NCBI GenBank assembly: GCA_021794835.1
Contig: JAJYQA010000008.1
Span: 1-54,412, forward strand
DNA from: Actinomycetes bacterium
GTDB taxonomy: Bacteria; Actinomycetota; Aquicultoria; Aquicultorales; Aquicultoraceae
Reading direction: 5' to 3'
Length of the DNA: 54,412 nucleotides
Under the pieces are notes generated by a model that saw only the letters and a list, made by a program, of their open reading frames with translations, made no database searches and was not told where the DNA came from. Of the stretch, positions 44,504-47,530 are shown piece by piece; the first letter of the stretch is position 1, and each line of letters opens with the position of its first letter. The position numbers and the translations under genes are program-made.

Positions 44504-44553
44504 TTGACATTTTGTATAGGTAAGATATAAGTTAAAACAAGACAAAAATTGTC
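44504..44553 (+). promoter_or_regulatory. Promoter and likely Rrf2 operator
   Basis: A consensus TTGACA (44504-44509), a 16-base spacer and TATAAG (44526-44531) form a strong promoter. A perfect palindrome GACAA-AAA-TTGTC (44541-44553) lies just after the start of transcription. A further GACAAAT occurs near the ribosome site. Confidence 0.75.
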
Positions 44554-44596
44554 CGATTTAGTATTTTAAAGGATAAATAAGACAAATAGGAGGAGT

Positions 44597-45673
44597 ATGC
44601 AGTTTACCAAGAAATCAGAGTACGCTGTTCTAAGTGTACTTTACTTGGCAAAAAGCATGAGAGTGTGCGATATAAGCGAGATTGCGGAATCGCAGAACCT
44701 TTCGGCCTCTTTTGCGGCAAAGACACTGCAGCTGCTTGCAAAGGCCGGAATTCTAACCTCTAGGCGGGGCATAGGGGGAGGTTACGGCCTTGCACGCCCG
44801 GCATCCAAAATAAGTCTCTTAGAGCTGATCGAAGCCGTTGAAGGCCCACTTGCCCTAAGTGATTACCTAAAAGAAGGCGGCTCTTACGGCACCATGGAGC
44901 ACCTGCTTAAGTTAGCGATGGGCGAAGTCCAAGAGGCGGTTGCCACTAAGCTAAAAGGCATGACTCTTGCCGATATCTTAGCCAAAAGCACCCGTACAGC
45001 CGCCCACAAAAACCCGGTGATACTTTGTGACTTCGACGGCACGGTTAGTATGCGCGATGTATCCGATACGATTTTTACCATCTGGCTTAAAGACAAGTGG
45101 ACGGATATCGATTGGGAGTGGCATGAGGGCAAAATATCCATGGTCGAGCTTTATGAGAGATGTTGGTCGCTGGTTAATGCGACCGCGGATGAACTGACGG
45201 CTTTTGTCGATACGGTGGAGATCGACCCGTATTTTGGTGATTTTGTTAGCGAGAGCAAGGCGTCTAATATCCCGATCTACTTGGTGAGCGACGGCTTTGA
45301 TTATTTTATAGAGAGGATACTCGGCCGCTACAGCCACTCCGGCCTTAAGTACTATGCAAACCACCTGTTCTTTGAAGGCGGCAAACCAGCCCTAGAGTTT
45401 AACAACCAAAATCCGGCGTGCATTCAGTGTGCAAACTGTAAAAAATTTGTTATGGATGCAAAGCGGCAGCAGGCAGGTTATGTGATTTACATCGGGAACG
45501 GTTTATCTGACAGGTGCGCGGCCGAACATGCCGACCTGGTATTTGCAAAGGACAGCCTGCTTAAACACTGCAAAGAGAAAGGGGTCCCCTGCGTGCCCTA
45601 TAAAAACTTCGGCGAGATTCTGGAGTGTTTGCGAGAGAAAGAGGTATTTGGCGGAGAAATTCAAAATCCCTGA
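44597..45673 (+). CDS. Rrf2 regulator fused to an MtnX-like HAD phosphatase
   Basis: A 358-residue two-part protein. Residues 1-130 form an Rrf2 DNA-binding domain (MQFTKKSEYAVLSVLYLAKS, LSASFAAKTLQLLAKAGILTSRRGIGGGYGLARP) without the three Fe-S cysteines of IscR. Residues about 140-350 form an HAD phosphatase of the MtnX/SerB-like type: catalytic Asp145 and Asp147 (ILCDFDGTV), LVSDGFDYFI, and YIGNGLSDRCAAEHADLVFAK. A Cys cluster CIQCANCK lies in the cap. This suggests DNA binding governed by a phosphorylated small molecule. GGAGGAG precedes the ATG. uvrC follows 10 bases later. Confidence 0.92.
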   Translation: MQFTKKSEYAVLSVLYLAKSMRVCDISEIAESQNLSASFAAKTLQLLAKAGILTSRRGIGGGYGLARPASKISLLELIEAVEGPLALSDYLKEGGSYGTMEHLLKLAMGEVQEAVATKLKGMTLADILAKSTRTAAHKNPVILCDFDGTVSMRDVSDTIFTIWLKDKWTDIDWEWHEGKISMVELYERCWSLVNATADELTAFVDTVEIDPYFGDFVSESKASNIPIYLVSDGFDYFIERILGRYSHSGLKYYANHLFFEGGKPALEFNNQNPACIQCANCKKFVMDAKRQQAGYVIYIGNGLSDRCAAEHADLVFAKDSLLKHCKEKGVPCVPYKNFGEILECLREKEVFGGEIQNP

Positions 45674-45682
45674 AATTGATTT

Positions 45683-47530
45683 ATGCAAAACAGAAATAGG
45701 CTTGTTGAACAACTAAAAAGTGTGCCAGCCGATCCAGGCGTTTATATTTATCGGGACTCAGATGGTAGGGTCATATATGTGGGTAAAGCAAAGTCTTTGA
45801 GGATTCGAATGCGCTCGTATTTTAATAATGGTGATCACTCGCCTAAAACTGAGGCCCTCATTAAGAGAATCGCCGATTTTGAATTTTACGTGACAAGCAC
45901 TGAGATTGAGGCGCTTGTCCTTGAATCGAACCTAATAAAAAAATACCGGCCGGCCTTCAACATATCCTACCGAGATGATAAAAGTTACCCATATATTGCA
46001 ATAACCTGGCAGGATGATTATCCCCGAGTGATAATAACCCGGGAGCATCACCGGCGAAATACAAAGTACTACGGGCCTTATACAAGCGTGCAAGCCGTCA
46101 GGGAAACTTTCGATACATTGCGGCGAATATTCCCATTTAGGACGTGCAAGCGCAGTAAGCCAGGTAAGCCGACCGGCTCACCGTGTTTAAATTACCATAT
46201 AAAGAGATGCCTCGGCCCGTGTATTAGAGCCGTCTCAAAAGGCGAGTACCGGGCGATGATTGAAAAAGTTGAGATGTTTTTGGAAGGAAATCCCAAACCG
46301 GTAATCAACCAGCTTGAGGCTAAAATGAACGAGGCAGCGGCAAAACTAGAGTTCGAACATGCTGCGAGGGATAGGGATAGGCTTGAAGCGGCGAGGCTTG
46401 TTTTACAAAAGCAAAAGATAGTATCCGAGGCGGGTGAGGATTTCGATATCTTGGGCCTAAGTGTCGATGGGGCTATTGGATGCGTGAATCTATCGGTGGT
46501 GCGTGACGGCAAGCTTATTGGAAGCAAGAACTTTATCCTAGATCTCCTAGATCGTGGCGAATCCAACGGGGATATCTTAAGTGCGTTTATAAAACAAAGC
46601 TATATTAACTCTACATCGATACCGCCGCAGTTGCTCCTACCCGCTGAGATTGAAGACGGCAGGTTGGTAGAAGAGCTGTTGAGTAGTTTAAGAGGAACCA
46701 AGGTCTCGCTAAAAGTTCCGCAGAGGGGGAATAAGCGCGAACTTTTAGCTATGGCAGCGGCAAATGCCCAGTATGCTTTAAATATGTCTATTGTAAAGCA
46801 TTCCTGGGAAAAGAAAACCTCCGCTAGAGTTCTTGATGCTCTTGCGGCAGATTTAGGTCTTCTTAACCAGCCCAAAAGGATTGAGTGCTTTGATATATCG
46901 ACCATTTACGGGCGCAACTCAGTTGGATCGATGGTGGTTTTTAAGGACGGGCATCCATCTAAAGACGATTACCGAAAATTTAAAATTACCTATGTCGAGG
47001 GTATGAATGACTTTGCGATGATGGGCGAGGTGATAACCCGCCGACTTGAGCACCAGAAAGCCAATCTTGACCCATCTTTTTCAGACCGGCCTGACCTAAT
47101 TGTTGTTGACGGTGGGAAGCCACAGCTCTCGGCGGCGGTATCTGCCCTTCAAGCGGCAGGCTCTAGCGATATACCTGTCTTTGGCCTGGCAAAAAAGGAA
47201 GAAGAGATTTACGTACCGGGTTTAAGTAAACCGATAAGGCTTGATCGGGACTCCGAATCTCTAAAACTTATGCAGAGGATAAGGGACGAGGCACATCGTT
47301 TTGCCATAACTTACCACAGGCGGCTTCGCGGGAAAGCAATGGTTGAGTCTACTCTAGATAAAATTCCTGGAGTGGGTGATGGTCGAAAAAAGCTGCTGCT
47401 TAAGCAATTTGGCTCACCTAGCGCAATTGCCGATGCAAGCCTTGAGGAGTTAAAGACGGTGCCCACTCTACCAGACATAATTGCCGAGAGAGTATATCGG
47501 CATTTCCATCAGAGCGGTGGTCTAAATTAA
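45683..47530 (+). CDS. uvrC: UvrABC excinuclease subunit C
   Basis: A 615-residue nuclease that makes both cuts in nucleotide excision repair. The GIY-YIG domain (PGVYIYRDSDGRVIYVGKAKSLRIRMRSYF, about 18-47), a cysteine-containing region (CKRSKPGKPTGSPCLNYHIKRCLGPC), the UVR motif, the RNase H-like domain (RIECFDISTIYGRNSVGSMVVF; IVVDGGKPQLSAA) and the helix-hairpin-helix pair at the end (IPGVGDGRKKLLLKQFGS) are complete. The ribosome site is weak, fitting coupling to the upstream gene. The stop overlaps the likely ATT start of ogt. Confidence 0.97.
   Translation: MQNRNRLVEQLKSVPADPGVYIYRDSDGRVIYVGKAKSLRIRMRSYFNNGDHSPKTEALIKRIADFEFYVTSTEIEALVLESNLIKKYRPAFNISYRDDKSYPYIAITWQDDYPRVIITREHHRRNTKYYGPYTSVQAVRETFDTLRRIFPFRTCKRSKPGKPTGSPCLNYHIKRCLGPCIRAVSKGEYRAMIEKVEMFLEGNPKPVINQLEAKMNEAAAKLEFEHAARDRDRLEAARLVLQKQKIVSEAGEDFDILGLSVDGAIGCVNLSVVRDGKLIGSKNFILDLLDRGESNGDILSAFIKQSYINSTSIPPQLLLPAEIEDGRLVEELLSSLRGTKVSLKVPQRGNKRELLAMAAANAQYALNMSIVKHSWEKKTSARVLDALAADLGLLNQPKRIECFDISTIYGRNSVGSMVVFKDGHPSKDDYRKFKITYVEGMNDFAMMGEVITRRLEHQKANLDPSFSDRPDLIVVDGGKPQLSAAVSALQAAGSSDIPVFGLAKKEEEIYVPGLSKPIRLDRDSESLKLMQRIRDEAHRFAITYHRRLRGKAMVESTLDKIPGVGDGRKKLLLKQFGSPSAIADASLEELKTVPTLPDIIAERVYRHFHQSGGLN

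Follow-up and report, generated by a model that had tools for sequence, protein, structure and literature searches.

Introduction

The Rrf2 transcription factors known so far are mostly small sensors of the Fe-S or thiol type. The helix-3/wing motif conserved in the family reads Lx3Gx6Gx2GGx2L (PMC9338935), and at full length the Rrf2 sites span 23-25 bp as inverted repeats (PMC5015018, PMC9338935). Among the HAD proteins, MtnX acts after MtnW in B. subtilis (PMC6302742). The trigger enzymes PutA and BirA offer an analogy for a protein that works as enzyme and repressor at once (PMC6978683).

Here, we describe a gene in a stretch of actinobacterial DNA of 54,412 nucleotides (the window) that joins an Rrf2 domain to a HAD domain. 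Like the Rrf2 factors IscR, NsrR, RirA, CymR and RsrR, its product has a complete Rrf2 domain with the wing motif and a candidate inverted-repeat site at its own promoter, and two fused orthologs have the three Cys positions; unlike these factors, it carries a C-terminal HAD domain of ~215 aa, and the window copy is without the Fe-S cysteines. The HAD domain shares with MtnX and the MtnX-like HAD-IB proteins (TIGR01489; PDB 2fea) the DFDGT motif, S231, a CxxCxxCK cluster and a score above the TIGR01489 cut-off. It differs from MtnX in being fused to Rrf2, in the Asn of motif IV, in missing the mtnX equivalog cut-off and in the absence of MtnW and MtnD. As in PutA and BirA, DNA-binding and metabolic-enzyme domains lie in one chain that apparently controls its own operon, but the folds are others, and an effect of substrate on DNA binding would, for the fusion, be a conjecture from its architecture. 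Neither a report of an Rrf2-HAD fusion nor a text with the term "MtnX-like" turned up in literature searches.

Results

One frame encodes an Rrf2 domain and an MtnX-like HAD domain

The earlier note had described one continuous Rrf2-HAD frame, and this description was borne out: the frame is open throughout, with no stop or frameshift between the domains or elsewhere (Table 1). Since the same fusion is present in four further assemblies, it is not an assembly error.

Table 1. Features of the fusion locus, in positions of the window.
Feature	Position	Strand	Basis
-35 box TTGACA	44504..44509	+	sequence; invariant before all five fused genes
-10 box TATAAG	44526..44531	+	invariant in all five; spacer 16 (15-16 in relatives)
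probable operator AGACAAAAATTGTCC, inverted repeat	44540..44554	.	same position in five genomes
ribosome-binding site AGGAGG	44588..44593	+	sequence; 3 nt before ATG
fusion gene	44597..45673	+	open frame, 358 aa; orthologs in G001-G004
Rrf2 DNA-binding domain, residues 4-129	44606..44983	+	PF02082, TIGR00738, alignments
MtnX-like HAD-IB phosphatase domain, residues 139-350	45011..45646	+	TIGR01489, phmmer to 2fea, alignments
uvrC	45683..47530	+	9 nt after fusion stop; likely co-transcribed

The N-terminal part matched the Rrf2 model PF02082 of Pfam at residues 4-129 (1.5e-30, 106.5 bits against a cut-off of 30) and TIGR00738 of NCBIfam (98.4 bits against 73.3), and its nearest solved relatives are Rrf2/IscR chains. 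The remainder matched the Pfam HAD model PF12710 and Put_Phosphatase (residues 142-310) as well as TIGR01489, the MtnX-like HAD-IB model of NCBIfam (residues 139-319, 99 bits against 81.55); under longer models the end of this domain reaches about residue 348. Its nearest solved relative in a phmmer search was 2fea, annotated as MtnX (5.7e-25). An AlphaFold model of the protein had a pLDDT of 33 and was discarded.

The fusion is restricted to one family

The searches covered 60 relatives and a sample of 396 genomes of the phylum, and extended beyond the phylum non-exhaustively. The window's own genome is named G000; G001 and G002 are of the same genus, G003-G010 of the same family, and G011 of another family in the same order. 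The domain pair was found in five genomes of a single family, G000-G004, with 63% (G001), 82% (G002), 63% (G003) and 54% (G004) identity to the window protein. It was absent from G005-G010 and was not found in the other 391 phylum genomes sampled, where the remaining strong matches consist of the HAD part alone. A scan of GTDB contigs returned one locus only, the ortholog of G002, and none of the 311 plasmid records that matched covered at least 80% of the query. The fusion is real and restricted to one lineage, a variant of known families.

In the tree of HAD sequences, the fusions are monophyletic (96/95 support) and have the standalone HAD protein of G011 as their sister (93/88); these sequences show a single origin of the fusion. 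The standalone G011 gene, too, is immediately followed by uvrC, and pabB-pabC-like genes precede it (names read from the sequence). In the uvrC tree, G006 and G008, where uvrC directly follows lepA, group with the carrier G003. Most simply, HAD and uvrC would be neighbours of long standing, the HAD gene would have been joined to an Rrf2 domain once, and losses would have followed.

The Rrf2 domain keeps its wing motif and loses the Fe-S ligands within one genus

The wing motif is intact in the window protein (L47-L65) and in all four orthologs. As had been claimed, the window copy has none of the three Fe-S Cys ligands, which follow the wing; G003 and G004 keep all three, and G001 and G002 the first only. 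Most simply, then, the Fe-S cysteines appear to have been lost inside the window's genus. Another cysteine, C24, occurs in every one of the five fusions, and none of the aligned standalone Rrf2 proteins has it.

Comparison of G000 with G002 put dN/dS near 0.13 in the Rrf2 part and near 0.09 in the HAD part, values that are approximate because dS is 0.7-1.0; by this measure, purifying selection acts on both domains. Because the Cys ligands are gone from the window protein while the remainder is kept, the Fe-S input would be lost, and since this protein is nevertheless under purifying selection, such an input would be dispensable in the window's genus. The same observation weighs against an account in which the domains are not allosterically coupled, the Rrf2 part senses redox or thiol through the ancestral three-Cys Fe-S site or through C24, and the HAD part is an enzyme made along with it. 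The three ligands kept in G003 and G004, and C24 with its restriction to the fusions, speak for this account, which we consider somewhat unlikely.

The HAD domain is probably an active phosphatase

The earlier note had called the catalytic Asp residues intact, which is correct in part: D145 and D147 (DFDGT), S231, K282 (within CxxCxxCK) and D305 are present, but motif IV reads GNGLSD, with Asn (N301) in place of its first acid. Four of the five fusions, and G011, have Asn at this position; G004 has Asp there, and several standalone homologs have Glu. With Asn here, activity is likely, not assured. The Cys cluster is indeed present, although it is ordinary for this HAD subfamily, occurring in nearly all standalone homologs aligned, and not special to the fusion.

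A role in methionine salvage is not supported

Methionine salvage had been suggested as the context of the protein. The search for pathway partners covered MtnW and MtnD. Neither the RuBisCO-like protein MtnW (PF00016) nor the ARD protein MtnD (PF03079) was found in any of 13 genomes, those of the window and 12 relatives, and the B. subtilis control was positive. Judged from gene content, canonical methionine salvage looks unavailable in the window genome. Against the mtnX equivalog model TIGR03333, the HAD domain scored 98.3 bits, about one third of the cut-off of 303.2, and mtnA is present with or without the fusion, so that the suggestion was not upheld.

The fusion could still be a phosphatase and regulator of methionine or 5-deoxyribose salvage that handles methylthioribulose, deoxyribulose or MtnX-type phosphates. 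Its kinship with 2fea, the mtnA gene of the window genome and an additional palindrome in G004, flanked by sahH and a class II aldolase-mtnA pair, speak for this. Besides the missing partners, the low equivalog score and the independence of mtnA, however, a terminator-like hairpin separates that palindrome from the aldolase gene, nothing like an operator was seen beside mtnA in G000-G003, and the closest standalone HAD genes adjoin unrelated ones (pabB-pabC-HAD-uvrC; aminotransferase-HAD-dnaX). We therefore regard a salvage role as very unlikely, and the palindrome beside mtnA in G004 was downgraded as support for it because of the hairpin and the lack of such a site near mtnA in G000-G003.

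The mtnA genes of G000, G001, G002, G005 and G007 carry TGA in frame where the HxCNAGALATV motif has its conserved Cys, and homology continues past it (L089:1501-2532, which is G000:C3:27272-28303; also L086, L087, L088 and L092). G003, G004, G006 and G008-G011 have Cys at this position. SelB scored over its cut-off in all of these genomes searched, with the exception of G000. The TGA-containing gene appears to encode a methylthioribose-1-phosphate isomerase with selenocysteine, of which no report was found in literature searches.

A conserved inverted repeat lies at the promoter

The consensus promoter proposed for the gene was confirmed, with its boxes and spacer as given in Table 1; a consensus scanner had left it unlisted because its -10 box is without the final T that the scanner demands. 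An inverted repeat with the perfect core GACAAAAATTGTC (GACAA-N3-TTGTC, 44541-44553) follows the -10 box by 8 nt in the window and by 8-13 nt across the five genomes. Depending on the genome, 42 to 83 nt separate it from the ATG, while its place after the -10 box is kept; upstream DNA other than promoter and repeat is mostly unalignable among the five. The repeat reads AGACAAAAATTGTCC in G000 and G002, AGACTAAAATAGTCT in G001 and GGACAAAAACGGTCC in G003, where the arms pair in part only; in G004 it reads GGACTAATTTAGTCC and sits within a perfect 23-bp palindrome, a length within the range of full Rrf2 sites. Both arms have thus changed among the genomes with complementarity mostly retained, and half-sites that change in step support an operator.

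In the window genome alone the palindrome is within chance: GACAA-N3-TTGTC has two copies in 2.04 Mb, about as many as expected by chance, as has the reversed control, and dinucleotide shuffles of the local 45 bp equalled its score in 70% of cases. It rises above chance by its conservation: all five genomes have it at the matching position, and both arms have changed. From the comparison we judge the inverted repeat to be the probable operator of the fusion gene, as the earlier note had proposed.

Sites that depart from the genus consensus at fewer than three positions were limited to the gene's own promoter in G000 and G001; in G002 there is one more, within a coding frame. Under strict matching, extra copies were not found in the non-coding DNA of G000-G002. 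Other operator matches in these three genomes were rejected as chance, being inside coding frames (sigma factor, aminotransferase, cobyrinate-synthase-like and others).

In G004, a 23-bp palindrome (TTCAGGACTAAWTTAGTCCTGAA), the same or nearly the same as the fusion-gene operator, occurs at three other intergenic places (L075:2968-2990, L076:3006-3027, L077:2996-3018): in the leuA-leuC gap, 3' of sahH, and between a YbjQ-like gene and an apparently convergent lipA. Two of the three sit 3' of genes, a poor fit to a promoter operator.

These near-copies at gene 3' ends, of which the one between convergent genes is terminator-like, would suit a different explanation, namely that the repeat is a 5'-UTR hairpin or a dispersed palindromic element that follows the promoter by chance, as would its lack of significance in the window alone. 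We think this improbable, as in all five genomes the repeat keeps its place after the -10 box at differing distances from the ATG, and no extra non-coding copies were found by strict matching in G000-G002.

uvrC follows the fusion gene in all carriers

In all five carriers uvrC directly follows the fusion gene, and from this arrangement the two are likely co-transcribed. With uvrC directly downstream, autoregulation would set its expression too.

The order pabB-pabC-HAD-uvrC of G011 (L031:9780-11410; names from the sequence) may hint at a folate-linked substrate. In G037, G052 and G066, a related standalone HAD gene lies between an aminotransferase gene and dnaX, and in G037 and G052 a CofE-like gene precedes the aminotransferase gene (L032:8100-12458, L033:6909-11606 and L035; all names again from the sequence). 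As the contexts of the closest standalone HAD genes differ, the neighbours give no reading of the substrate.

Discussion

The reading that we prefer, with a probability of roughly 45%, is that the protein is an Rrf2 repressor of its own gene that has gained, at its C-terminus, a HAD domain that would bind an effector and would probably be catalytic. The elements seen in the sequences are the fusion and its single origin, the wing motif, purifying selection on the two domains, the conserved operator-like site and the place before uvrC. From these we infer that the protein would sit as a dimer on the inverted repeat, across the start of its own promoter, and would repress, rather than activate, the fusion-uvrC operon. 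Binding or cleavage of a phosphorylated metabolite by the HAD domain would then alter DNA binding and lift the repression, in the manner of PutA or BirA.

The candidate site lies over the expected transcription start, a position in keeping with repression, and the fusion protein probably controls its own operon, uvrC included. Since no other convincing site was found in the window's genus, the data are best read as autoregulation dedicated to the fusion-uvrC operon. Counting against the preferred reading are the palindrome being within chance in the window genome, the partly unpaired arms in G003, the extra copies in G004, and N301 in place of a Mg-binding Asp in four of the five fusions.

A bolder proposal, which we hold to be rather unlikely, is that Fe-S sensing has been swapped for the HAD domain as sensor, so that a phosphorylated metabolite sets an operon that includes the DNA-repair gene uvrC. 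If it is true, cysteines that vanish while a phosphatase domain stays would show how the Rrf2 family gains a new input, and a little-studied group of actinobacteria would provide an enzyme-linked repressor with one defined operator, ready for testing. The link to uvrC raises the question of why a DNA-repair gene would follow a phosphometabolite.
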